The notes under the pieces: generated by a model | The model's database searches: none | Told to the model about the DNA's origin: nothing | The model's input: the letters and a program-made list of their open reading frames with translations, nothing else | Made by a program: the position numbers and the translations under genes | Part shown: positions 1,695 through 14,652 of the stretch, in pieces | How positions within the stretch are numbered: position 1 is the first letter of the stretch | How the letters are laid out: each line of letters starts with the position of its first letter | Source: Allonocardiopsis opalescens | Lineage (GTDB): Bacteria; Actinomycetota; Actinomycetes; Streptosporangiales; Streptosporangiaceae | NCBI RefSeq assembly: GCF_003002095.1 | Contig: NZ_PVZC01000002.1 | Span: forward strand, 558,001 to 622,000 | Reading direction: 5' to 3' | Length of the DNA: 64,000 nucleotides

Positions 1695-3668
1695 CTAGGG
1701 CTGCTCGACGTAGTACTGCTCGGGGTTGGTGGGGCCGGGGTCGTTGTAGTTGGAGGCGCTGAACATGCGCTCGGGGACGTTGTGGAAGTCGTTGGCGACG
1801 ATGCCGTAGGTCTCCGGGGTCAGGCCGATGCCCATCGCCCAGAACTGGTCCTGGGCGATATCGATGATCTGCCGCATCAGCTCCTGCTGCGCCGCCGGAT
1901 CGGGCTCGGCCTGCACCTGGTCGTACAGCTCCAGCTGCTGCCGGGCCGGCTCCGACGGCTCCTGACCCCGCTCGTCCTGGCCCTCGGAGGCGTACCACTG
2001 CGCCCACGGGATGGCGAAGGCCGACTCGCCGCTGTGCCAGGGCACGTACCAGCGGGGGTCGTAGAGCACGTCGGTGAGGCCGCTGTCACCGGACCAGACG
2101 CTGACCTCGTGCTCGTTGTTCTGCTTGCGCTCCAGGAACAGCGCCCGGTCCTCGGGCCGCAGCTGGACGTCGATGCCGACGGCCTGCCAGTAGCCGACGA
2201 CCATCTCCATCGCGTCGATCTGATCGGGCCGGAAGTCGGTGGCCACCGAGAGCGTGAAGGCGATCGGCTCGCCGTCGGGGCCGAGCCGGGGCCCGTCGCC
2301 GCCGCGCCGCTCGTAGCCGGCGTCGTCGAGGATCTGCTCGGCCAGCTCGGGGTCGTACTCCAGGTACTGGGTGGCCAGCTCCTCGTTGTAGTACGGCGAC
2401 TCGCGGCGGGGCGCGGCCTGCCACGGCTCGCCCTGCTCCTGGTAGACGACGTCGATGACCTCCTGCCGGTTGATCGCGTGCGACATCGCGATGCGGAAGT
2501 CGATGTCGTTGAAGACCTCGCGGAGGCTCTCGTCCTCGTGGGTGAGGTTGAACGCGATGACGTTCGTGTTCATCTCACTGGGCGTCTGTGCGAAGAAGTC
2601 GTAATTGCCCCGCTCGCGGTTCTCGGCCAGCACCGGCCGGTTGGCCAGCGTGTTGAAGTGCCGCGAGTGCATGTTGATGTCGCCGTTGAGCGCGCGGGTG
2701 AGCATGACCTCGGGGTCCTGCATGATCTCGAAGTTCACCCGGTCGATGTAGGGCAGCTGGTTGCCCTCCGTGTCGATCTTCCAGTAGTAGGGGTTGCGCT
2801 CCAGCACCATCGTGCCCGAGTCGGCCAGCGGCTCCACCACCATCCACGGGTTCATCGTGGGCAGCTCGGGGTTCTGCCAGGTCAGGGCGCTGTTGGTGAC
2901 ACCCGCGCGCACGTCGAGCATCTCCACCCAGCTGTCGAAGCCCTCCTCCTCGGCCAGCTCCTGGGCGTCGGGGTTGTAGTCCTCGTGGAACTGCTCCAGG
3001 TAGTGCCGGGGCTTGTTCACGATCTGGTAGTTGAGCAGGTCGGAGGCGGCGAACAGCGCCCGCGGCTCCTCCCAGGTGATGGTGAAGGTCTGGTCGTCGA
3101 CGACCTCCACGGTGCCCGGGTCGGTGATGGCCTCGGGCGAGACCTCCTCGTTGCCGAAGATGTCGTTCAGCGCGAACTCGATGTCGCGCGAGGTGAAGGG
3201 CTCGCCGTCGGACCAGCGCAGCCCGGCCCGCAGCGTGTAGGTGAGCTGGGTGGCGTCCTCGTTGTACTCCCAGGACTCCGCCAGGTTGGGGATGGTCTCC
3301 GTCCAGTCGGTGCTCCAGCGGGTCAGGCTCTCGTAGCCGACGGTGCGGCCCAGCCACGGCCAGTCGCCGACGCCCGCGATGGCGGAGTTCCACTCCCCGC
3401 CGTAGGTGCCGACCTGCTCGGTCGGCTGCACGACGACCGGGTCCTCCGGCAGCCGCTCGGCCAGCGGCGGCAGCTCGCCCGCCTCGACCCGCTCGGCCAG
3501 CATCGGCGCCTCGTTGACGCCCTCCACGGCGGCGCCCTCCTCCTGCCCCGCGGGGTCGGTGGAGAAGAAGCTGCAACCGGTCAGCGCGAGGACCAGGACG
3601 CCGGCGACCGCGCCGAGCGCTCTCGTGCGCGGGCGGCGCCGCCCGCGTGTGGGTGTTCCCGTGTCCAT
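1695..3668 (-). CDS. ABC transporter substrate-binding lipoprotein, family 5 (Opp/Dpp type)
   Basis: The product has 657 residues. The ATG is chosen because GGAGGA lies nine bases upstream and because it gives a lipoprotein signal: basic RGRRRPRTR, a hydrophobic stretch, then LALTGC with the lipidated Cys at 32. The mature part has family SBP_bac_5 features: GLRWSDGEPFTSRDIEFALND, AMSHAINRQEVIDVVYQ and LDDAGY. Family-5 proteins bind peptides, but one branch binds plant oligosaccharides. The neighbouring GH3, oxidoreductase and DUF6807 genes favour an oligosaccharide ligand; this is inference. The protein would be tethered outside the membrane and deliver ligand to the two permeases encoded upstream. 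Hairpins flank the gene on both sides. Confidence 0.93.
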   Translation of the reverse strand: MDTGTPTRGRRRPRTRALGAVAGVLVLALTGCSFFSTDPAGQEEGAAVEGVNEAPMLAERVEAGELPPLAERLPEDPVVVQPTEQVGTYGGEWNSAIAGVGDWPWLGRTVGYESLTRWSTDWTETIPNLAESWEYNEDATQLTYTLRAGLRWSDGEPFTSRDIEFALNDIFGNEEVSPEAITDPGTVEVVDDQTFTITWEEPRALFAASDLLNYQIVNKPRHYLEQFHEDYNPDAQELAEEEGFDSWVEMLDVRAGVTNSALTWQNPELPTMNPWMVVEPLADSGTMVLERNPYYWKIDTEGNQLPYIDRVNFEIMQDPEVMLTRALNGDINMHSRHFNTLANRPVLAENRERGNYDFFAQTPSEMNTNVIAFNLTHEDESLREVFNDIDFRIAMSHAINRQEVIDVVYQEQGEPWQAAPRRESPYYNEELATQYLEYDPELAEQILDDAGYERRGGDGPRLGPDGEPIAFTLSVATDFRPDQIDAMEMVVGYWQAVGIDVQLRPEDRALFLERKQNNEHEVSVWSGDSGLTDVLYDPRWYVPWHSGESAFAIPWAQWYASEGQDERGQEPSEPARQQLELYDQVQAEPDPAAQQELMRQIIDIAQDQFWAMGIGLTPETYGIVANDFHNVPERMFSASNYNDPGPTNPEQYYVEQP

Positions 3669-3745
3669 ATCGATGCTTCCTCCGTTGTGGCGTGGCCCCC
3701 GAGTCGGCTCGCCCTTGCGGCCGGACAGTGGTGGACGGTCCGCGG

Positions 3746-3770
3746 CGCCCCGGCCCGTGCGGCCGGGGCG
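3746..3770 (-). terminator. Intra-operon hairpin before the binding-protein gene
   Basis: A perfect 10-bp stem (CGCCCCGGCC with GGCCGGGGCG) around a 5-nt loop begins three bases past the stop of the upstream ATPase gene. With the larger hairpin after the binding-protein gene it brackets that cistron, consistent with processing or stabilisation of the binding-protein message. Confidence 0.6.
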
Positions 3771-3772
3771 GC

Positions 3773-4846
3773 TCAGACCACTCCGTTGAGCTCCAGTTCC
3801 TCGGCGTAGTGGCAGGCGGCGCGGCGGCCGGGCGCCACCTCGCGCAGCGGCGGCTCCTCGGCCGCGCAGCGCTCGGTGGCGTAGCGGCAGCGGGTGCGGA
3901 AGGAGCAGCCCGACGGCGGATCCGACGGGTCGGGCACATCGCCGGTGAGCACGATCCGGCGCTCGCCGCCGCGCAGCCGGGGGTCGGGCTTGGGCACCGC
4001 CGACAGCAGCGCCTCGGTGTAGGGGTGGCGCGGCGCGGCGTACAGCGGCTCCGTCTCGCTCAGCTCCACGATCTTGCCGAGGTACATGACGGCGACGCGG
4101 TCGCACAGGTACTCCACGACCGACAGGTCGTGCGAGATGAACAGGTAGGTGAGGTTCAGCTCGTCCTGGAGGTCCTGCAGCAGGTTGAGGATCTGCGAGC
4201 GGATCGACACGTCCAGCGCGCTCACCGCCTCGTCGGCCACCACCAGCCGGGGGTCGAGGGCGAGCGCGCGGGCGATGCTGACCCGCTGCCGCTCGCCGCC
4301 GGAGAAGGCGTGCGGGTAGCGGCGCATGTACTCCGGCCGCAGCCCCACCTTGCGCAGCATCGCGGCCACCCGCTCCTCCAGGGCGGAGCCGCTCAGGCCC
4401 TCGTTCACCCGGATCGGCTCACCGATGATCTCCAGCAGGGTGAACCGGGGGTTCAGCGAGGCGTGCGGGTCCTGGAAGATCATCCGGACCTCGCGCCGGT
4501 AGGCGCGCAGGTCGTCAGGGCCCAGCCGCGACACGTCGAGCAGCCGCCCGTCGGAGGCGCGGAAGCGGATCCGGCCGCCGGTGATCTCGCGGGCGCGCAT
4601 GACGGCCGAGCCGAGGGTGGTCTTGCCGCAGCCGGACTCCCCCACCAGGCCCAGGGTCTCCCCGGCCCGGATGCTCAGGTCGACGCCGTCGACCGCCTTG
4701 ACCTGGCCGACCACCTTCTGCCGGAAGCCCTTGCGGATCGGGAAGTGCACCCGCACGCCCTCGGTCTCCAGCAGCACCCGCTCGTCGGGCGCCTCGCCGC
4801 CGCCCCCGGGGGCGTGCTCCTCGGGGCGGGTGGTCTCAGTCGCCAT
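3773..4846 (-). CDS. ABC transporter ATP-binding protein, OppF/DppF-like
   Basis: The protein has 357 residues from ATG 4846 (GGAGAG upstream); the start lies inside the end of the preceding ATPase gene (11-bp overlap), typical of translational coupling. Walker A GESGCGKT is at residues 69-76; the signature SGGERQR and Walker B LVVADEAVSALD follow. The C-terminal CSFRTRCRYATERC segment is the Cys-containing tail found in oligopeptide/dipeptide-type ATPases. It powers import through the two permeases of the operon, paired with the OppD-like subunit. Everything needed for ATP hydrolysis is present. Confidence 0.95.
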   Translation of the reverse strand: MATETTRPEEHAPGGGGEAPDERVLLETEGVRVHFPIRKGFRQKVVGQVKAVDGVDLSIRAGETLGLVGESGCGKTTLGSAVMRAREITGGRIRFRASDGRLLDVSRLGPDDLRAYRREVRMIFQDPHASLNPRFTLLEIIGEPIRVNEGLSGSALEERVAAMLRKVGLRPEYMRRYPHAFSGGERQRVSIARALALDPRLVVADEAVSALDVSIRSQILNLLQDLQDELNLTYLFISHDLSVVEYLCDRVAVMYLGKIVELSETEPLYAAPRHPYTEALLSAVPKPDPRLRGGERRIVLTGDVPDPSDPPSGCSFRTRCRYATERCAAEEPPLREVAPGRRAACHYAEELELNGVV

Positions 4847-5999
4847 GGCTGCTCTCCGGGGTGGGTTCGGGCGCGGCGGTCTGGGCGTCGGGGGCTCCCG
4901 GGGCCGGGCCGCCGTCACCGCCGTAGAGCAGGCAGCGCACCTGCCGGTCGGGGCCGAGCGCGACGGGCGGCGGCACGGTGGCGTCGCAGCGGCCCGGCAT
5001 GAAGGCGTCGCAGCGGGTGTGGAAGACGCAGCCGGCGGGCCGGTTGGCGGGATCGGGCACGATGCCCTTGATCGAGCGCAGCCGCTCGCGGCGGCGGTGC
5101 CCGATCTTGGGGATGGACTCCAGCAGCGCCCGGGTGTAGGGGTGCTTGGGGTCGTGGAAGATGTCGTCGACCGGGCCCTTCTCCACGACCTTGCCCAGGT
5201 ACATGATCGCCACGTCGTCGGCCATCTCGGCCACCACGCCCATGTCGTGGGTGATGAACATGATCGCCATGCCCAGCTCGCGCTGGAGCCGCTTGAGCAG
5301 CTCCATGATCTGGGCCTGGGTGGTCACGTCCAGCGCGGTCGTCGGCTCGTCGGCGATCAGCAGGCCGGGGTCGCACGACAGCGCCATCGCGATCATCACC
5401 CGCTGGCGCATCCCGCCGGAGAACTGGAACGGGTAGGAGTCCACCAGCCGCCCGGGGTTGGGGATGTTCACCATGCCCAGCAGCTCGACCGCCCGCTCGC
5501 GCGCCTCGCGCTTGCCCACGTCGTTGTGCACCCGGATGGCCTCGACCATCTGGTTGCCCACCGTGTGCACCAGCGAGAGCGAGGTCATCGGCTCCTGGAA
5601 GATCATCGCGATGTCCTTGCCGCGGACGCTCCTGATCTCCTTGCCGCCCGGCTTGAGTCCGGCCAGGTCCACGACCTCGCCGGGCCCCCCGTCGGCGCCG
5701 CCGCGGCGCAGCAGGATCCGCCCGTCGACCACCCGGCCGGGCGCCTCCACCAGCTGGAGGATGGAGCGGGCGGTGATGCTCTTGCCGCAGCCGCTCTCCC
5801 CGACCACGCACAGGGTGCGGCCCCGCCGGATCTCCAGGTCGACCCCGTCGACGGCGCGCACCGTGCCCTCGTCGGTGAAGAAGTGGGTCTTGAGGCCCCG
5901 CAGCTCCACCAGCACCTCGCCGCCGGGTGCCCCGGGGGCGCCGCCGGCCTGCGCGGCCGGGGCTCCGCCCGCCTCGGCCGCCCGTTCGCCTGCCCGCAC
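4836..5999 (-). CDS. ABC transporter ATP-binding protein, OppD/DppD-like
   Basis: About 387 residues. The start is a GTG at 5999 behind GGTGAG; an in-frame GTG at 6008 is an alternative. Walker A GESGCGKS (67-74), signature FSGGMRQR and Walker [13 protein letters not shown] are intact, and the C-terminal [15 protein letters not shown] tail matches oligopeptide-type ATPases. The first 30 residues are a low-complexity Ala/Gly linker. It lies 14 bases downstream of the permease C gene and overlaps the OppF-like gene. The two ATPases form the heterodimeric motor of the transporter. Confidence 0.94.
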
Positions 6000-6013: not shown

Positions 6014-7174
6014 TTATCTGTAGGGGTCGGCGGAGTCGCGGACCCCGTCGCCGACGAAGTTGAGCACCAGTACCGCCACCACCACGGCGACGCCGGGGAG
6101 CAGCAGCCAGGGCGCGGTGGCGATGGTGCGGATGTTCTGCGACTCCTGGAGCAGCACGCCCCAGCTCACCACCGGCGGTTGCAGGCCGAGCCCGAGGAAG
6201 GACAGCGAGGTCTCGGCCAGGATCATGTACGGGATCGCCAGCGTCAGCGAGGCGATGATGTGGCTGCTGAACGAGGGCAGCATGTGGCGCAGGATGATCC
6301 GCGGCCTGCTGCACCCGTCCAGGCGCGCCGCTAAGACGAAGTCCTCCTCCCGCAGCGACAGGAAGCGGCCGCGCACCACCCGGGCCAGGTCGGTCCAGCC
6401 GATCACCGAGAGGATCACCGTGATCGCGAAGTAGGTCTCCAGCGGCCCCCAGGTGCGCGGCACCGCCGCCGACAGGCCCAGCCAGAGCGGGATCGTCGGG
6501 ATGGACATCAGGAACTCGATCACCCGCTGGATCGCGGTGTCGGTACGGCCGCCGAAGTAGCCGGAGACGCCGCCGAGCACGATGCCGAACACGAAGGTCA
6601 GCGCCACGCCCACCAGGCCGATCGAGAGCGAGATCCGGGTGCCGTAGATGATCCGCGACAGCAGGTCGCGGCCGTTGCGGTCGGCGCCCAGGAAGTACAC
6701 CCGCTGCTCGGGGTCGGTCGGGCCGATGAAGTGGCGGTCGGAGGGGATGAAGCCCCACATCTCGTAGGGCTCGCCGCGCACGAAGAAGCCCACGTCGATG
6801 CGCTGCGACTCGTCCTCCTGGAAGACCCGCGCCAGGGTCTCGGGGTCGCGCACGGAGGTGTAGCCGTGCACGTAGGGGCCGAACCGCGTCCCGCCGCCGG
6901 AGGTGTCGACGAAGTGCAGGCCCTGCGGCGGAGCGTAGGTGTGGTCGGCGCTGTAGGAGTCGGGCGTGGTCGGTGCCAGGAACTCGGCGAACACGCCGAC
7001 CAGCGCGAACAGCAGCACGAACACGGCGCTGACCATCGCCAGGCGGTGCTTGCGGAAGCGCCACCACACCAGCTTCCACTGGGGTGCGACGGCGACGCCG
7101 CCGTCGGTGGCGGCCGCCGCCTCGATCGGGGCGGTGCCCGCCGGCTGGTCCGGGGGGAGCTGTCTAACTGCCAT
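6014..7174 (-). CDS. ABC transporter permease, DppC/OppC-like
   Basis: The product has 386 residues. A cytoplasmic N-terminus leads into the OppC_N helix (AMVSAVFVLLFALVGVFAEF). After an external segment of about 110 residues come the DRNGRDLLSRIIYGTRISLSIG entry, several membrane helices, the ATPase-coupling loop around EEDFVLAARLDGCSRPRIILRHMLP, and a final helix ending GDGVRDSADPYR, the usual end of DppC proteins. The long extracytoplasmic segment between helix 1 and the core is typical of the sugar-associated branch. It pairs with the DppB-like permease encoded 12 bases upstream. Confidence 0.95.
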   Translation of the reverse strand: MAVRQLPPDQPAGTAPIEAAAATDGGVAVAPQWKLVWWRFRKHRLAMVSAVFVLLFALVGVFAEFLAPTTPDSYSADHTYAPPQGLHFVDTSGGGTRFGPYVHGYTSVRDPETLARVFQEDESQRIDVGFFVRGEPYEMWGFIPSDRHFIGPTDPEQRVYFLGADRNGRDLLSRIIYGTRISLSIGLVGVALTFVFGIVLGGVSGYFGGRTDTAIQRVIEFLMSIPTIPLWLGLSAAVPRTWGPLETYFAITVILSVIGWTDLARVVRGRFLSLREEDFVLAARLDGCSRPRIILRHMLPSFSSHIIASLTLAIPYMILAETSLSFLGLGLQPPVVSWGVLLQESQNIRTIATAPWLLLPGVAVVVAVLVLNFVGDGVRDSADPYR

Positions 7175-7186
7175 CTGCGTGCACCA

Positions 7187-8179
7187 TCACCCTTCCGCGT
7201 ACCTGATGCGCGGGTCCCACCACGCCAGCAGGAGGTCCGACAGGAGCGTGCCGATCACCGTGAGGGTGGCCAGGATGAGGATGAAGCTGCCGGCCAGGTA
7301 CATGTCCTGGCTGATCAGCGCCTCCACCAGCAGCGGCCCGGTGGTGTCCAGGCCGATCACGATCGAAACCAGCACCTCGCCCCCGATCAGGGACGGCAGC
7401 AGCCAGCCGGCCGTGCTGATGAACGGGCCCAGCGCCATCCGCACCGGGTACTTGAGGATGATCCGCCACTCGGGCAGCCCCTTCGCGCGGGCGGTGGTGA
7501 CATAGGGCTTGCGCAGCTCGTCCAGCAGGTTGGCGCGCAGCACCCGGATCAGCGAGGCCGTGCCCGCCATGCCGATGATCAGCACCGGCACCCACACGTG
7601 CGACAGCAGGTCGAGCACCTTGCCGAGGTTCCAGGCCGCGTCGGCGAACTCCGGGGAGAACAGCCCGCCCACGCTCTGCCCGAAGTAGTTGAACGAGATC
7701 CACACGAAGATCAGCGCGAGCAGGAAGTTCGGGGTGGCCAGGCCGAGGAAGCCGATGAAGGTGAAGGCGTAGTCGCCGGCGGAGTGCTGCTTGACGGCGG
7801 AGTAGACGCCGATCGGGAAGGCGATCGCCCAGCTGACCAGCAGGGTCGCCACGGCCAGCGCGATGGTCAGCCCGAGCCGGTTCCAGATCAGGTCGGCCAC
7901 CGGGCGCCGGTACAGGAAGGAGTCGCCGAAGTCGCCCTGCAGCACGATGTGGGAGATCCACTGGTAGTACTGCACGTAGATCGGGTCGTTGAGGCCGTAG
8001 CGCTCCCGCAGCGCCTCCACCAGCCGGGTGTCCACCGCGTCGCCGCGCGAGGACAGCTCCGCGATGTAGGTGGACAGAAAGTCGCCCGGCGGCAGCTGGA
8101 TGATCAGGAAAGTCACCACCGAGATGGCGAACATGGTGGGCACCATGTAGATCAGCCGCCGGATCACGAGCTTGGCCAT
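7187..8179 (-). CDS. ABC transporter permease, DppB/OppB-like
   Basis: The product has 330 residues starting MAKLVIRRLIYMVPTMFAISVVTFLI, the classic first helix of DppB. Further features are GDFGDSFLYRRPVADLI, the coupling-loop motif ELRKPYVTTARAKGLPEWRIILKYPVR, and the end DLLLAWWDPRIRYAEG. It forms half of the membrane channel. The gene opens the transporter part of the operon, behind the oxidoreductase gene and a small hairpin. Confidence 0.95.
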   Translation of the reverse strand: MAKLVIRRLIYMVPTMFAISVVTFLIIQLPPGDFLSTYIAELSSRGDAVDTRLVEALRERYGLNDPIYVQYYQWISHIVLQGDFGDSFLYRRPVADLIWNRLGLTIALAVATLLVSWAIAFPIGVYSAVKQHSAGDYAFTFIGFLGLATPNFLLALIFVWISFNYFGQSVGGLFSPEFADAAWNLGKVLDLLSHVWVPVLIIGMAGTASLIRVLRANLLDELRKPYVTTARAKGLPEWRIILKYPVRMALGPFISTAGWLLPSLIGGEVLVSIVIGLDTTGPLLVEALISQDMYLAGSFILILATLTVIGTLLSDLLLAWWDPRIRYAEG

Positions 8180-8246: not shown

Positions 8247-9356
8247 TCACCACCGCGGACCGCTCCCGTCCATCCGGCCGTGGAAGGGCGAGCCGGCGGC
8301 CAGGTCGGCGGGGGTGATCGTGCGGCGCTCGAAGGCCGAGGCGTAGATCCCGGCCACCAGCCGCATCGTCCGCGCGCTGTCGGAGGAGGTGACCGGCGGC
8401 GGGCGGTGCTCGCCCAGCGCCCGCACCACGTGGGCGAACTGGGCGCGGTGGCCGCTGCTCACCCCCGACTCCCCCGCCTTCCACGCGTTGACGACGGCCT
8501 CCTCGCGGCCGGGCGCCGGGGTGACCCGCCAGTCGTCGTCGCCGTAGCCGTACAGGTGGGTCAGCTCGACGGTGGCGTGCTCGAAGTCGATCCGCACGTA
8601 GCTCTCCTCGCGCGGCGACAGCACGCTGTTGACCACGCTGGCCACCGCGCCGCTGGCGAAGGTGACGTGCGCCAGCGACAGGTCCTCGGTGTCCATCACC
8701 CGCGCCTGCTGCCGGGCCAGCGCCGACACCGAGGTCCACTCGCCGAGCAGCGCGACCAGCAGGTCGATCTGGTGGATGCCGTGCCCCATGGTGGGGCCGC
8801 CGCCCTCGGTGTCCCAGCGGCCCCGCCACGGCACGTCGAAGTACTCCTGCTCACGGAACCAGGTGGTGTGGCAGATCGCCACCAGCGGGCGGCCGAGCAC
8901 CCCGGTGGCCATCACCTCCTGCAGCCGCCGCGCGCCCGAGCCGAAGCGGTGCTGGAAGACGGTGGCGAACCACGGCCCCTCAGCGCCCTCGGCGGCGGCC
9001 AGCTCGTCCATCTCGGCCAGGCTCAGCGCCGGCGGCTTCTCCACCAGCGCGGTGGCGCCTGCTCTCAGGCAGGCCAGGGCCTGCTCGCGGTGCAGCCCCG
9101 GCGGGGTGCACACGTGCACCAGGTCGGGGCGGGCCTCGCGCAGCATGGTGCCGAGGTCGGTGAAGAGGGCGGGCAGTTCGTGGCGGTCGGCGAAGGCGGC
9201 CAGCCGCTCCTCGTCGACGTCGACGCCGGCCACCACCTCGACCTGCCGGCCCAGCGCCCGCAGCGCCTCCACGTGGTAGCGCGCGATGTTCCCGGTGCCG
9301 ACGATCGCGGCGCGGACCGGGCCCGCCGGGCCCGGCGCACCGCTCACGCTCACCAC
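8247..9356 (-). CDS. Gfo/Idh/MocA family oxidoreductase
   Basis: About 369 residues from a GTG at 9356; GTGs at 9353 and 9347 are alternatives and none has a strong ribosome site. The N-terminal Rossmann fold carries VRAAIVGTGNIARYHVEAL. The LVEKPPALSLAEM stretch holds the EKP catalytic motif, and the C-terminal sheet domain includes GGGPTMGHGIHQIDLL. This family oxidises or epimerises sugars and inositols with NAD(P). As first gene of the operon that imports a glycoside, it probably processes the imported sugar or a keto intermediate; the exact substrate is not readable. Confidence 0.92.
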   Translation of the reverse strand: MVSVSGAPGPAGPVRAAIVGTGNIARYHVEALRALGRQVEVVAGVDVDEERLAAFADRHELPALFTDLGTMLREARPDLVHVCTPPGLHREQALACLRAGATALVEKPPALSLAEMDELAAAEGAEGPWFATVFQHRFGSGARRLQEVMATGVLGRPLVAICHTTWFREQEYFDVPWRGRWDTEGGGPTMGHGIHQIDLLVALLGEWTSVSALARQQARVMDTEDLSLAHVTFASGAVASVVNSVLSPREESYVRIDFEHATVELTHLYGYGDDDWRVTPAPGREEAVVNAWKAGESGVSSGHRAQFAHVVRALGEHRPPPVTSSDSARTMRLVAGIYASAFERRTITPADLAAGSPFHGRMDGSGPRW

Positions 9357-9516
9357 GACGCCGCCCGGCGGACCGCGCCGCCCCGTTCCGTACCGCCGCT
9401 GCTGGCCCTGCTCATCGACCGCCTCCTCGTCACCCGGCCGCGCCGCGGCGGCCGGCCCCAAGTGGTCCGGCCGGCACCGGGCGCGACGCGCACTGCACGC
9501 GCTGCAAGCACTGAGT

Positions 9517-9527
9517 GGAAAGTTTCC
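9517..9527. promoter_or_regulatory. Operator-like repeat GGAAAGTTTCC
   Basis: A perfect 11-bp inverted repeat containing GAAAGTTTC. GAAASTTTC (S = C or G) is the motif described upstream of streptomycete xylanase genes and bound by LacI-type xylan regulators. It overlaps a second palindrome TTTCCGGAAA (9523-9532). I infer binding of the LacI regulator encoded at 13615. Confidence 0.65.
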
Positions 9528-9598
9528 GGAAATCAGACCGGCCCGTAGTTTGAGTCCGTACCCTAGGCAGCTCTCGTAAAGGTCGTCAAGGACTTGCC

Positions 9599-9611
9599 GG
9601 AAAGCGTTTTC
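9599..9611. promoter_or_regulatory. Operator-like repeat GGAAAGCGTTTTC
   Basis: A near-palindrome with a central CG, typical of LacI-family operators. It lies 144 bases upstream of the GH3 start and close to a T-rich stretch that may be promoter. Possibly a second type of LacI site or a weaker copy of the regulon motif. Confidence 0.45.
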
Positions 9612-9670
9612 ATAGGCTTTTACACGGGGAGAAACGGACAAGAAGCATGTTGGGCGTCGGGAGTGGACCA

Positions 9671-9687
9671 ACCGGAAGTCTTCCGGT
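9671..9687. promoter_or_regulatory. Operator-like repeat ACCGGAAGTCTTCCGGT
   Basis: A perfect 17-bp inverted repeat in the GH3 leader. Its core CCGGAA-N3-TTCCGG is the same as in the repeat upstream of the xylanase gene (13451-13465), which links the two promoters to one regulator. Confidence 0.65.
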
Positions 9688-9754
9688 ACTACTGTTCCGA
9701 CAACTCCGTGACATGGCGCCACCGCGCCCCCAGCCGACAGAGGGAACCCCCCGG

Positions 9755-12196
9755 ATGACTGACGCTCCCGAACGGGCCGACACCCCCATGGGCACCATGG
9801 CCGGCGGACCCTGGCAGGACCCCTCCCTACCGACGGCCCAGCGGGTGGCCGACCTGATGTCCCGGATGACGCTGCGCGAGAAGGTCCAGCAGCTCATCGG
9901 CTTCTGGGCGGCGCCGGCCGCCGAGGGCGAGACCGTCGCGCCCATGCAGGACAGCTTCAGCGCCGACGTGCCCTCGCTCGACCTTGTCTCGGCCGACGGC
10001 CTGGGCCACCTCACCCGCGTCTTCGGCACCGCCCCGGTGCGGCCGGCCGAGGGCATCGTGCGGCTGGCCGCGCTGCAGCGCGACATCGCCGCGGCCAACC
10101 GCTTCGGCATCCCCGCCATAGCGCACGAGGAGTGCCTGACCGGGCTGGCCGCGCACGCCGCCACCGTCTTCCCCACCCCGCTGGCCTGGGGCGCCACCTT
10201 CGACCCCGAGCTGGTCGAGGAGATGTCGAGCGCCATCGCCGCCTCGATGCGCGCCCTGGGCGTGCACCAGGGCCTGGCCCCCGTCCTCGACGTCACCCGC
10301 GACTACCGCTGGGGCCGCACCGAGGAGACCATCGGCGAGGACCCCCAGCTGGTGGGCGTGCTCGGCAGCGCCTACGTGCGCGGCCTGGAGCGCGGCGGCA
10401 TCGTCGCCACCCTCAAGCACTTCGCCGGGTATTCGACCTCGCGGGCCGGGCGCAACCACGCGCCCGCCGCGCTCGGCCCCCGCGAGCTCAACGACGTGAT
10501 CGTCGAACCCTTCGTGATGGCGCTGCGCACCGGCGGCGCCCGCTCGGTGATGAACTCCTACGCCGACCTCGACGGCGTGCCCGCCGCGGCCGACGAGCGG
10601 CTGCTCACCGACCGCCTGCGCGGCGAACTCGGCTTCACCGGCGTGCTCGTCAGCGACTACTACGCGATCTCCTTCCTGGAGACCACCCACGGCGTGGCCG
10701 GGTCCCCCGGCGAGGCCGCCGCGCTCGCGCTGCGGGCCGGCATCGACGTCGAGCTGCCCACCGTGCGCTGCTACGGCGAGCCGCTGCTGGAGATGGTGTA
10801 CTCCGGCGCCGTCCCCGAGGAGCTGGTCGACCGCTCGGTGCACCGGGTGCTCACCCAGAAGTGCGAGCTGGGGCTGCTGGACGCCGACTGGGCCGAGCGG
10901 CTGGACCTGCTGGCCGAGGCCGCCGCCTCGGCGGAGGCGCCGATCGACCTGGACTCCCCGGCCAGCCGCGCCGTCGCCCGGCGCCTCGCCGAGCGCTCGG
11001 TGGTGCTGGCCGCCAACGACGGCGTGCTCCCGCTCTCCGCCGAGCTGCGCCGGGTCGCGGTCGTCGGCCCGCTCGGCGACGACCCCCTCGGCATGCTCGG
11101 CTGCTACACCTTCCCGATCCACGTCGGCCGCCGCCACCCCGAGATGCCGATGGGCGTGGAGATCCCGGGCCTGGCCGAGCGGCTGGCCGCCGAGCTGCCC
11201 GGCGCCGAGCTGCGGGTGGAGTTCGGCTGCCCGGTCATCGAGGCGCCCGAGAGCACCGACCGCGAAGAGGTCGACCGCGGCATCGCCGCCGCGGTGGCCG
11301 CCGCCCGCGAGGCCGAGGTCTGCGTGCTGGCCGTCGGCGACCGCGCGGGCATGTTCGGCCGCGGCACCTCCGGCGAGGGCTGCGACGCCGAGTCGCTGGA
11401 GCTGCCGGGCCGCCAGCGCGAGCTGGCCGAGGCGGTGCTGGCCACCGGCACCCCCACCGTGCTGGTGCTGCTGTCGGGGCGCCCCTACGCGCTGGGCGGG
11501 CTCGCCGAGCGCGCCGCCGCCGTGGTGGCCGCGTTCTTCCCCGGCGAGGAGGGCGCCGCGGCCATCGCCGGGGTGCTCACCGGCCGGGTGGAGCCGTCGG
11601 GGCGGCTGCCCGTCTCCATTCCGCGCACCCCGGGCAGCCAGCCCGCCACCTACCTGCACGCCCCGCTGGCCGGCCGCTCCGACGTCAGTTCGGTCGACCC
11701 CACCCCGCTGTACCCCTTCGGCCACGGCCTGGGCTGGACGAGCTTCGCCTTCACCGATCTCGCCCTGGAGACCGCGTCCGGCGCCGGCGTCCGCGAGCCG
11801 GGCGAGTCGGGCGTGGCCGTGCCCACCGACGGCTCGGTCGTGGTGTCGTGCACCGTCACCAACACCGGCGGGCGGGCCGGCGGCGAGCTGGTCCAGCTGT
11901 ACCTGTCCGACCCGGTCGCCTCCGTGGTCCGCCCGGTGCGCTGGCTGGCGGGCTGGACGCGGGTGCACCTCGAACCGGGCGCCTCGGCCCGGGTGCGCTT
12001 CACCGTGCACGCCGACCGCACCTCCTTCACCGACCCGCGCCTGCGCCGGGTGGTGGAGCCGGGCCGCATCGACGTCGCCCTGGGCCGCTCCAGCGGCGAG
12101 CTGCCGCTGACCGGCTCCTTCCGGCTGCGCGGCCCGGTCCGCGAGCCGGGGCCCGACCGCGTGCTCGACGTGCCCGTCGAGGTCGTGGCCGGCTGA
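9755..12196 (+). CDS. GH3 family beta-glycosidase (beta-glucosidase or beta-xylosidase)
   Basis: The product has 813 residues. The ATG at 9755 is chosen for AGAGGG nine bases upstream. The N-terminal GH3 barrel shows DYRWGRTEETIGEDPQLVG, KHFAGYS and the nucleophile motif VLVSDYYA with Asp301. The alpha/beta sandwich domain (GH3_C) follows, then an FnIII-like C-terminal domain from about residue 690. There is no signal peptide, so the enzyme is cytoplasmic and would cleave oligosaccharides after import by the divergent ABC system. The GH10 xylanase gene next to it makes beta-xylosidase activity at least as likely as beta-glucosidase; sequence reading alone does not decide. Confidence 0.93.
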   Translation: MTDAPERADTPMGTMAGGPWQDPSLPTAQRVADLMSRMTLREKVQQLIGFWAAPAAEGETVAPMQDSFSADVPSLDLVSADGLGHLTRVFGTAPVRPAEGIVRLAALQRDIAAANRFGIPAIAHEECLTGLAAHAATVFPTPLAWGATFDPELVEEMSSAIAASMRALGVHQGLAPVLDVTRDYRWGRTEETIGEDPQLVGVLGSAYVRGLERGGIVATLKHFAGYSTSRAGRNHAPAALGPRELNDVIVEPFVMALRTGGARSVMNSYADLDGVPAAADERLLTDRLRGELGFTGVLVSDYYAISFLETTHGVAGSPGEAAALALRAGIDVELPTVRCYGEPLLEMVYSGAVPEELVDRSVHRVLTQKCELGLLDADWAERLDLLAEAAASAEAPIDLDSPASRAVARRLAERSVVLAANDGVLPLSAELRRVAVVGPLGDDPLGMLGCYTFPIHVGRRHPEMPMGVEIPGLAERLAAELPGAELRVEFGCPVIEAPESTDREEVDRGIAAAVAAAREAEVCVLAVGDRAGMFGRGTSGEGCDAESLELPGRQRELAEAVLATGTPTVLVLLSGRPYALGGLAERAAAVVAAFFPGEEGAAAIAGVLTGRVEPSGRLPVSIPRTPGSQPATYLHAPLAGRSDVSSVDPTPLYPFGHGLGWTSFAFTDLALETASGAGVREPGESGVAVPTDGSVVVSCTVTNTGGRAGGELVQLYLSDPVASVVRPVRWLAGWTRVHLEPGASARVRFTVHADRTSFTDPRLRRVVEPGRIDVALGRSSGELPLTGSFRLRGPVREPGPDRVLDVPVEVVAG

Positions 12197-12202
12197 GAGA
12201 CG

Positions 12203-12247
12203 CGCGGTGCGGCCGGCGCCACCCCCTCCTCCGCCGGCCGCACCGCG
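12203..12247. terminator. Bidirectional hairpin between convergent GH3 and xylanase genes
   Basis: A 16-bp perfect stem (CGCGGTGCGGCCGGCG with its complement) closes a 13-nt loop, seven bases past the GH3 stop and 12 bases before the xylanase stop on the other strand. It probably ends both transcripts. Confidence 0.8.
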
Positions 12248-12258
12248 TCAGCTCCCGC

Positions 12259-13386
12259 TCAGTCCCGGCCCCGGCCGGAGGCCAGCGCCAGGGTCTCCAG
12301 CACCTCCCGGTAGGCGGGCTTGGGGTTGTAGTCCTCGTCCAGCAGGTTGGCCGCGCCCTCCCCCTCGAACCAGTCCGGCACCCACGAGTAGCGGTCGGTG
12401 AAGCCCCACACCGTGAAGGAGTCGCAGCGCGGGGTGCGCAGGCACGCGGTCAGCAGGCTGCTGTACCCCTGGGCCTGCGCCTGGAGCTCGACGGTGTCGG
12501 CCGGCATCGGGATGCGCACGTCGGCCTCGGTGACCGCGGTGCGCAGGCCGAGCGCGGCGAAGCGCTGGAGGTTGGCGGTCGTGTCGGGCGCGAAGCCGTA
12601 CTGCACGCCCAGGTGGCCCTGGACGCCGACGCCGTGCACGGGCACGCCCTCGCGGCGCAGCTGCCGGGCCAGCTCGTAGTAGGCGTCGCTCTTGGCGTTG
12701 ACGCCCTCGATGTTGTAGTCGTTCAGGAAGAGCTGGGCCCGGGGGTCGGCCTGGTGCGCCCAGCGGAAGGCGTCGGCGATGTAGTCGGGGCCGATGGTCT
12801 CCAGCCAGATGTTCTGCCGGAGGTTGCCCTCGTCGTCGAAGATCTCGTTGGCCACGTCCCACTGCCAGATCTGGCCGCGGTAGCGGCCGACCACGGTGTG
12901 GATGTGCTCGCGCAGGATGGCGCGCAGCTCCTGGCGGCTGAAGTCGCCCTCGGCCAGCCAGGCGGGGTTCTGGTTGTGCCAGACCAGGGTGTGGCCGCGC
13001 ACCCGCTGGCCGTTGGCGCGGGCGAACTCCACCAGCTCGTCGGCGGCCGCGAAGTCGTAGCGGCCGCGTTCGGGCTGGAGGGTCTCCCACTTCATCACGT
13101 TCTCGGCGGTGACCGAGGAGAACTCGGCGCCGACGCGCTCGCGGTAGACGGGGTCGTTCGCCAGCGCCGCCATGTCGACGGCGGTGCCGACGAACAGGCC
13201 GCGGGGGGCGGCGTCGCGGAGCACGTCGGGGTCTCCTTCCGGCTGGTGGCGGTCGGCGGGCAGCGGGGCGGCGGCCGGCGCGGCCACGGCGGCGGGGGTC
13301 GCGGGGGCGAGCAGCAGGGCGCCGAGGACCAGGGCCGCTCCGGCGCGCCGCACCCCCCGCGTCCGGATCGAAAGCAGGCTTCGCAC
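12259..13386 (-). CDS. Secreted GH10 endo-1,4-beta-xylanase
   Basis: The product has 375 residues from GTG 13386, preceded by AAGGAG at ideal spacing; an upstream ATG at 13476 would place the operator inside the gene. A Sec signal peptide (basic VRSLLSIRTRGVRR, hydrophobic core, AVAAPAAA cleavage region near 37) leads to a GH10 barrel: TAENVMKWETLQPERGRYDF, GHTLVWHNQNPAWL, WQWDVANE with acid/base Glu181, and TEADVR with nucleophile Glu287. The usual 'LDV' of the nucleophile loop is 'ADV' here. No carbohydrate-binding module is present. It would release xylo-oligosaccharides outside the cell for uptake by the neighbouring ABC systems. Confidence 0.95.
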   Translation of the reverse strand: MRSLLSIRTRGVRRAGAALVLGALLLAPATPAAVAAPAAAPLPADRHQPEGDPDVLRDAAPRGLFVGTAVDMAALANDPVYRERVGAEFSSVTAENVMKWETLQPERGRYDFAAADELVEFARANGQRVRGHTLVWHNQNPAWLAEGDFSRQELRAILREHIHTVVGRYRGQIWQWDVANEIFDDEGNLRQNIWLETIGPDYIADAFRWAHQADPRAQLFLNDYNIEGVNAKSDAYYELARQLRREGVPVHGVGVQGHLGVQYGFAPDTTANLQRFAALGLRTAVTEADVRIPMPADTVELQAQAQGYSSLLTACLRTPRCDSFTVWGFTDRYSWVPDWFEGEGAANLLDEDYNPKPAYREVLETLALASGRGRD

Positions 13387-13447
13387 GGTGAAAGCTCCTT
13401 CGGGTCCGGCGACCGAAGCCGGATGGCCGCGGCCGTTCGGGCGAGAT

Positions 13448-13468
13448 TTTCCGGAAGCATTCCGGAAA
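13448..13468. promoter_or_regulatory. Perfect 21-bp operator-like repeat upstream of xylanase gene
   Basis: TTTCCGGAA and TTCCGGAAA flank a GCA spacer. The site lies 62-82 bases upstream of the xylanase GTG and about 150 bases upstream of the divergent LacI gene, so it may control both. It shares its CCGGAA-N3-TTCCGG core with the repeat in the GH3 leader. Confidence 0.7.
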
Positions 13469-13614: not shown

Positions 13615-14652
13615 GTGACCGACGACACGGACGGCAGTACCGGTCGGGTTGGTCGCGTGACCATCACCACCATCGCCCAGGAGGCGGGGGTCTCACTCCC
13701 CACCGTCTCGCGGGTGGTGAACGGCCGGGCCGACGTCGCACCCCAGACCCGCAAGCGCATCGAGGAACTGCTCCAGCGGCACGGCTACCAGCGCCCGGTG
13801 CGGCGCCAGGAGGTCCGGGCCAACCTCATCGACCTCGTCTTCAACGACCTCGACAGCCCATGGGCGCTGGAGATCATCCGGGGCGTGGAGGAGGTCGCGC
13901 ACGGCGCCGGCATCGGCACCGTCATCTCCGCCATCCGCCGCCGCTCCACCGTCGCCCGCCAGTGGCTGGAGAACGTCCGCACCCGCGCGTCCGACGGCGT
14001 CATCTTCGTGACCTCCGACCCCGAGCCCCGGATGCACGCCGAGCTGCGCCGGCTGCGCGTGCCCACCGTGGTGGTCGACTCCGCCGGCATCCCCGCGCTC
14101 GACGTGCCCACCATCGGCGCCACCAACTGGTCCGGCGGCATGAGCGCCACCGAGCACCTGCTCAGCCTGGGCCACCGCAGGATCGGCGTCATCGGCGGCC
14201 ACCCCCGGCTGCTGTGCAGCCGCGCCCGCCTCGACGGCTACCGCGCCGCCCTCCAGTCGGCCGGAGTGCCGACCGACGACGCCCTCGTGGTCGAGGGCGA
14301 CTTCTCGCACGAGTCCGGCTACACCGGCGCGAGCCGCCTCCTCGACCTCGACGACCCGCCCACCGCGATCTTCGCGTGCAGCGACACCATGGCCTTCGGC
14401 GTCTACGAGGCGGCGCGGGTGCGCCGCATGCGGGTGCCCGACGACCTCAGCGTGGTCGGCTTCGACGACATCCCCGGCGCCCGCTGGACCTCCCCGCCGC
14501 TGACCACCGTCCGCCAGCCCCTGGTCGAGATGGGCCTGCTCGCCGCCCGCACCATGCTCCGCCTGATGGACGGCGAGCAGATCGAGAGCCCCCGGGTGGA
14601 ACTCGCCACCAACCTCATCCTGCGCCACAGCACGGCCCGGCTGGGCCACTGA
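13615..14652 (+). CDS. LacI-family transcriptional regulator
   Basis: The product has 345 residues from a GTG preceded by GAGGAGG. The N-terminal helix-turn-helix with hinge is clear (TITTIAQEAGVSLPTVSRVVNGRADVAPQTRKRIEELLQRHGY, about residues 16-58), followed by the periplasmic-binding-like sensor domain with DGVIFVTS, SLGHRRIGVIGG and LSVVGFDDIPGARW. It is divergent from the xylanase gene, and the GAA-N3-TTC repeats beside the xylanase and GH3 genes are likely targets. The effector is probably a xylo- or gluco-oligosaccharide; this is inference from context. Confidence 0.94.
   Translation: MTDDTDGSTGRVGRVTITTIAQEAGVSLPTVSRVVNGRADVAPQTRKRIEELLQRHGYQRPVRRQEVRANLIDLVFNDLDSPWALEIIRGVEEVAHGAGIGTVISAIRRRSTVARQWLENVRTRASDGVIFVTSDPEPRMHAELRRLRVPTVVVDSAGIPALDVPTIGATNWSGGMSATEHLLSLGHRRIGVIGGHPRLLCSRARLDGYRAALQSAGVPTDDALVVEGDFSHESGYTGASRLLDLDDPPTAIFACSDTMAFGVYEAARVRRMRVPDDLSVVGFDDIPGARWTSPPLTTVRQPLVEMGLLAARTMLRLMDGEQIESPRVELATNLILRHSTARLGH

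Follow-up and report, generated by a model that had tools for sequence, protein, structure and literature searches.

Genes and palindromes of the locus

The window analyzed here, a 64-kb stretch of the Allonocardiopsis opalescens genome, contains two pairs of divergent transcription units, and their arrangement agrees with the initial annotation: an ABC transporter operon led by a Gfo/Idh/MocA oxidoreductase gene faces away from a GH3 gene, and a GH10 xylanase gene faces away from a lacI gene. The operon lies on the minus strand. It comprises the oxidoreductase gene (hereafter Gfo; 8247-9356, with an uncertain GTG start at 9356, 9353 or 9347), two permease genes (7187-8179, oligopeptide type, and 6014-7174, OppC type), two oligopeptide-type ATPase genes (4836-5960, start approximate, and 3773-4918), a gene for a family-5 solute-binding protein (1695-3752, start approximate), a DUF6807 gene (603-1601) and, in last position, a cupin gene (1-460) that begins within the window and continues beyond its edge. 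Gene order suggests that all of these are probably carried on one transcript.

On the plus strand, the GH3 gene (9755-12196) encodes a beta-xylosidase/alpha-L-arabinosidase-type enzyme, scoring 1062.2 bits against the NCBI curated cut-off of 1050 for that function. Its start is assumed to be at 9755, since operator 2 (see below) sits inside a longer reading frame that begins at 9647. The GH10 endo-xylanase gene (xyn10, 12259-13386, minus strand) starts with a GTG at 13386 that follows a GGAG, and lacI occupies 13615-14652 on the plus strand. The lacI product exceeded the cut-offs for Pfam LacI, Peripla_BP_3 and Peripla_BP_1; with this helix-turn-helix (HTH) and periplasmic-binding-type sensor domain, it belongs to the LacI/GalR family of transcription factors.

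Three perfect inverted repeats had been reported in these promoter regions, and all three are present and exact: operator 1 at 9517-9527 (GGAAAGTTTCC), operator 2 at 9671-9687 between the Gfo-ABC operon and the GH3 gene (ACCGGAAGTCTTCCGGT), and operator 3 at 13448-13468 between xyn10 and lacI (TTTCCGGAAGCATTCCGGAAA), ~70 bp upstream of the GH10 start codon and 157 bp upstream of that of lacI. Shuffle controls show them to be non-random. The CCGGAA-N3-TTCCGG element ascribed to both operators 2 and 3 was recovered as CCGGAANNNTTCCGG, which occurs twice in the window (0.01 occurrences expected; none of 100 shuffles reached two), and GGAANNNTTCC occurs three times, exactly at the three operators (0.22 expected; none of 100 shuffles reached three). 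Operator 1 is embedded in the longer GAGTGGAAAGTTTCCGGAA (9513-9531), which has four mismatches against TTCCGGAA-N3-TTCCGGAA. This operator had been linked to the known xylanase motif GAAASTTTC; the core is indeed there, but it belongs to the related BxlR box CGAAASTTTCG, from which the operator differs at the base beside GAA. At each of the three operators GAA is preceded by G where BxlR boxes have C, and operator 1 contains GAAAGTTTC, the core of a BxlR box, with its flanks changed to G..C. Judged by these flanks, operator 1 may have originated as a BxlR box that was switched.

Between operators 1 and 2 lies an additional CG-centered palindrome (GGAAAGCGTTTTCA, 9599-9612), an unproven candidate noticed by eye and absent from the initial annotation, which resembles LacI-type sites and the CcpA cre consensus. 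A strict sigma-70 scan found no promoter.

Genome-wide distribution of the motif

The 15-bp form CCGGAANNNTTCCGG is present at four places in the 6.97-Mb genome, and its reversed control pattern at none. Two of these places are in the window, and besides operator 3 the genome has no perfect TTCCGGAA-N3-TTCCGGAA; a third site, CCGGAAAGTTTCCGG, precedes the gene for a secreted glucuronoyl esterase with a CBM2 (cellulose-binding) domain. The fourth is found at the start of an AraC-type regulator gene (L006 8518-8536, contig C6).

An extended scan of the whole genome with TTCCGGAA-N3-TTCCGGAA, allowing up to three mismatches and using the reversed pattern as control, returned 26 places versus 10 for the control; operator 1 fell below this cut because of its four mismatches. 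Nine of the 26 precede xylan-type genes, within about 400 bp upstream: one at GH10/lacI, one at GH3/Gfo, one at the glucuronoyl esterase, two at each of two GH11 xylanase genes and two at a PHB/CE1-type esterase. The regulon claimed initially thus passed a genome-wide scan for its motif, which recovered both of the GH11 genes (at each, the two sites are separated by 152 bp), one of the two GH10 genes and two esterases. The second GH10 gene has no CCGGAA-type site and carries a CebR box instead. Since the best NCBIfam name for the PHB/CE1-type esterase (over cut-off) is short-chain polyhydroxyalkanoate depolymerase, its activity on xylan is presumptive. Overall, the palindromes very probably mark xylan-breakdown genes as targets of one repressor.

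The other 17 places have no evident xylan link (nine inside called ORFs and eight elsewhere, with neighbors annotated in part), and a very loose pattern, CGGAAN{1,5}TTCCG, was not enriched genome-wide (23 versus 23 in the control), so the signal resides in the long, N3-spaced form. Both observations would be expected if the palindromes had merely arisen by chance near sugar genes and no regulon existed. We consider this extremely improbable given the shuffle controls in the window, the recovery of both GH11 promoters, and the 15/15 versus 0/15 distribution among relatives described below.

We took N3 as the home spacing because a scan with N2 (19 places versus 7 in the control) re-found so few of the nine promoter sites, returning one (C1:1260299) plus one that overlaps a second of them (C1:1288368). 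N2 spacing is frequent among relatives in the family.

A LacI clade next to the BxlR-like group

The genome encodes 20 LacI-family matches, which include one close paralogue of the window LacI (53% identical) on contig 8 (the C8 paralogue). We compared 111 LacI loci, consisting of the window, the C8 paralogue, the best 29 from the genome's family and the best 80 of 420 relatives. At the residue that we number as LacI position 22 and take to be AA-20 of the recognition helix, 96 of the proteins, including the window LacI, have arginine (Arg-type) and 15, including the C8 paralogue, have lysine (Lys-type); the best 80 of 420 relatives were all Arg-type, so the Lys side of the comparison is small. 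All 15 Arg-type loci of the family have a GH10 gene within 1.5 kb of lacI. A dominant LacI subgroup with arginine at recognition-helix AA-20 is discussed in PMC2978694.

Upstream of lacI, a CGGAA-type box within one mismatch was present at 69 of the 96 Arg-type loci (27 had none) and at 0 of the 15 Lys-type loci, which form a BxlR-like sister clade; a CCGAA-type box within one mismatch was present at 17/96 and 8/15 loci, respectively. When sites were collected by the GAA-N3-TTC core only (found at 57/96 Arg-type and 10/15 Lys-type loci), its flanks were G..C at 40 of 60 sites of Arg-type loci, whereas at Lys-type loci they were C..G at 15 of 21 sites and G..C at none. The base before GAA was G at 50 of the 60 Arg-type sites, and the 40 G..C sites have the consensus TCCGGAA-N3-TTCCG-N-AA. 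The operator base beside GAA (mostly G here, C in the BxlR-like clade) is therefore in step with arginine versus lysine at LacI-22. A single branch (support 100/99) parts the Arg and Lys groups in a tree of 57 rows, so this co-distribution represents one evolutionary event, widely conserved and seen many times. In this tree the window LacI falls outside the BxlR-like clade, as its sister; the Lys group is called BxlR-like by its CGAAA boxes (the tree included no experimentally studied BxlR sequence). Counting CCGGAA-N2/3-TTCCGG per genome did not serve as a marker of the regulator; by eye, counts across 80 genomes were no higher in those with an Arg-type LacI.

The two groups also share an unusual hinge. 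An A..L hinge motif, present in 15 of 17 other LacI proteins of this genome (one further protein lay outside the set), occurred in none of the 102 hinges that could be parsed among the 111 proteins of the combined Arg/Lys clade (nine could not). Its absence fits the operators of the window and of Arg-type loci, which have an N3 spacer and no conserved central CG and so depart from the canonical, though not universal, pairing of hinge and central CG in LacI/GalR proteins. Exceptions to this pairing are described as rare in PMC2978694.

Comparison with known xylan and cellulose regulators

Sites of the form CGAAACTTTCG are bound by BxlR, the xylobiose-responsive LacI-family repressor of Streptomyces (PMC4743123, with a similar account in PMC12772271). 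BxlR and the window LacI are alike in family, in xylan targets, in the GAA-N3-TTC core and in having operators that lack a central CG, and the short hinge without the A..L motif is common to the BxlR-like Lys-type clade and the window LacI. They differ in the operator, CGAAASTTTCG for BxlR versus CCGGAA-N3-TTCCGG in the window, where sites do not conform to the BxlR definition CGAANNNTTCG; in the recognition helix (lysine in the BxlR-like clade, arginine here) and hence in clade; and in gene neighborhood. The neighbors of bxlR are the bxlEFG-bxlA genes (PMC12772271), whereas the window lacI adjoins the GH10 gene and, across GH3, an oligopeptide-type ABC operon and not the bxlEFG transporter.

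The Lys-type C8 paralogue might itself be the true regulator, acting on these sites as BxlR boxes through the common GAA-N3-TTC core, with the local LacI controlling little. The BxlR core within operator 1 would agree with this, as would the BxlR-type boxes that relatives carry at the same operon (see below). Yet this genome has exact BxlR boxes (CGAAANTTTCG) at only four places, and two of these belong to the ABC locus of the paralogue itself; none was found within one mismatch in the loci of the genome's two GH10 and two GH11 genes; and Lys-type loci never show G..C flanks. Control by the paralogue is thus unlikely, and we favor the window LacI as the probable binder of CCGGAA-type sites. 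At the C8 locus (L197 3266-11714), where exact BxlR boxes occur, the paralogue has a sugar-type ABC transporter and a GH42 enzyme as neighbors, and its promoter holds GATCGAAAGTTTCGATC, which includes a BxlR box.

The cellobiose regulators CebR and CelR recognize TGGGAGCGCTCCCA (PMC4898821 and PMC3377646, in part). Like the window LacI, they are LacI-family switches for plant-polymer enzymes that use a palindromic site at many promoters, but their operator has a central CG. The related box GGGAGCGCTCCC was absent from GH10 locus L219, and by eye none was seen in the promoter stretches of the window. It does occur upstream of the second GH10 gene (L218 near 2624), and the glucuronoyl esterase promoter (L001 1560-1580, contig C1) holds a CebR-type box TGGGAGCGCTCCCA beside its CCGGAA site; because of these two boxes, the genome may have overlapping control of cellulose and xylan. 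Elements of the types GAAA(G/C)TTTC and TGAAANTTTCA precede cellulases and xylanases in C. acidiphila and A. robiniae (PMC3377646, in part), and these resemble the window operators in being palindromic with a GAA-N3-TTC core but have A or T beside GAA where the window has G; the part of PMC3377646 at hand names no regulator for them. A literature text search returned no description of a CCGGAA-type xylan operator, and among the matches listed for TTCCGGAA, none concerned xylan by title.

GH11 promoters in relatives

Among 38 family genomes searched for GH11 genes (19 whose best LacI match was at least 62% identical to that of the window and 19 picked among those with weaker matches), 30 yielded 40 matches in all, and we examined 30 loci, one per genome. 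The best CCGGAA-type site (N2 or N3) at the GH11 promoter had 0-2 mismatches in 15/15 genomes with an Arg-type LacI and 3-7 mismatches in 15/15 genomes without one, though these genomes are related, so P values overstate the case. A first grouping, by LacI identity alone, had given 15/16 versus 0/14, and the odd genome (G119) proved to have a Lys-type LacI. Under that first grouping, BxlR boxes within one mismatch occurred at 13 of 14 GH11 promoters of the second group and also at 6 of 16 of the first. None of 300 shuffled Arg-type GH11 promoters reached the site, and none of 40 shuffled-letter palindromes reached it in any of the 15.

A factor from outside the LacI family could in principle bind TTCCGGAA, which is itself a palindrome and recurs as extra units ~11 bp apart at several promoters; conservation beside lacI would then reflect the adjoining xylanase promoter. 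The fourth perfect site of the genome, at the AraC-type regulator gene, also speaks for this reading. We find this improbable, as the site is kept upstream of lacI where none of nine window proteins was found in 6-kb flanks (e.g., L103-L105), and the operator flanks change with the LacI clade.

A model for xylan control

The sites, the gene sets, their conservation and the regulator-operator co-distribution, all established computationally, are in our judgment best explained as a whole by the palindromes being operators of the LacI encoded at 13615-14652, which would control xylan genes, and we hold this reading with considerable confidence. A LacI dimer most likely binds TTTCCGGAA-N3-TTCCGGAAA and would thereby repress its own gene, the GH10 xylanase, the GH3 xylosidase and the Gfo-ABC-DUF6807-cupin operon. 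The same sites would place the two GH11 xylanases, the glucuronoyl esterase and the further esterase under this repressor, making LacI probably the main xylan switch of the organism. At four promoters in this genome the sites come in pairs spaced about 150-200 bp from each other, an arrangement suggestive of cooperative or looped binding. Given the target genes, a xylo-oligosaccharide is the presumed inducer that would release the repressor. These patterns point to a genuine regulon and, probably, to a specific regulator for it that is close to BxlR yet has an operator code of its own.

If so, xylan control outside BxlR gains a concrete regulator-operator pair across several actinobacterial families, and a previously uncharacterized operon (oxidoreductase, oligopeptide-type ABC transporter, DUF6807 and cupin) would find a place in xylan metabolism. 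The system would also provide a natural experiment, confined to one residue and one base, on how paralogous repressors come to be insulated from each other and swap targets. We regard as evenly balanced the broader scenario in which sister xylan repressors split their operator code by one helix residue (Arg/Lys at LacI-22) and one base per half-site (G/C beside GAA), after which whole operons changed hands, the Gfo-ABC-DUF6807 operon coming under BxlR-type boxes in relatives and under CCGGAA sites here and in Pseudonocardia nigra.

The DUF6807 operon and its operators in relatives

The DUF6807 protein has many invariant residues in an 11-sequence alignment, and a sequence search found no relative of it in the PDB. 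A structure prediction (mean pLDDT 82.7) gave it a mutarotase-like fold, similar to galactose mutarotases and PL26 lyases at Z about 18. The top four rows of that structure comparison had Z 17.8-18.1 over 234-250 residues with rmsd 3.1-4.3, while Foldseek gave TM-scores below 0.5 in the 50 rows shown. Such a predicted fold fits a sugar role without naming a specific function.

DUF6807 genes occur in 79 of 150 family genomes and, being this common, are not xylan-specific, but in several lineages DUF6807 and Gfo genes accompany genes of xylan type or LacI boxes of that type. In Allorhizocola (L119), a single block of GH10, GH3, Gfo and DUF6807 genes faces away from lacI, and the interval holds a CCGGAA-type site and also a CCGAAAGTTTCGG box; in Rhizocola (L140), such a block consists of GH3, Gfo and DUF6807 genes, and the site there is off by two mismatches. 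Across 18 family stretches, the full set of Gfo, permeases, ATPases, binding protein and DUF6807 was present in seven and a broken set in G127, while Gfo and DUF6807 occurred without this transporter in ten; a GH3 relative was present in six and a LacI of 53-58% identity in five.

Around 30 DUF6807 loci with 1.5-kb flanks, which are too short to include the operon promoter, no CCGGAA-type site was found within two mismatches (best 3-6). Longer stretches, which replaced this test, revealed BxlR-type boxes: in all six Arg-type genomes fetched (L301-L306), the Gfo operon promoter had two BxlR-type boxes within one mismatch, separated by 194-197 bp, and lacked a CCGGAA site (the closest sequences had 2-3 mismatches of 10). 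At least five further Arg-type genomes with a DUF6807 match lie outside this six-promoter comparison. The near-constant spacing of the boxes suggests looped repression. The second LacI genes taken from 13 of the 15 Arg-type genomes all belong to the Lys type, and G062 has a lacI of this type facing away from the operon. Of the 11 remaining family loci at which the Gfo start could be used (one more was omitted, as its Gfo matched in pieces), two had a BxlR-type box within one mismatch and nine had neither type. The initial proposal that the DUF6807-cupin-oxidoreductase operon is tied to xylan is therefore upheld insofar as LacI boxes of xylan type precede the operon in both settings, but control by CCGGAA-type sites is not general. 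Operators of the Gfo-ABC-DUF6807 operon appear to have been exchanged between the CCGGAA and BxlR types.

In Pseudonocardia nigra (L102), a block of Gfo, two permeases, a partial ATPase, DUF6807 and a cupin-like ORF directly precedes a lacI whose product is 86% identical to that of the window, and a CCGGAA-type site (one mismatch of 10) lies ~100 bp upstream of the Gfo match; the block yielded no binding protein. Several products of the block (L102 364-7002) are closer to those of the window than are those of the genome's own family (LacI 86%, compared with at most 66% in the family; permeases 89% and 83%; Gfo 79%), whereas its DUF6807 (72%) is no closer than the family's. This similarity hints at horizontal transfer of the Pseudonocardia nigra block.
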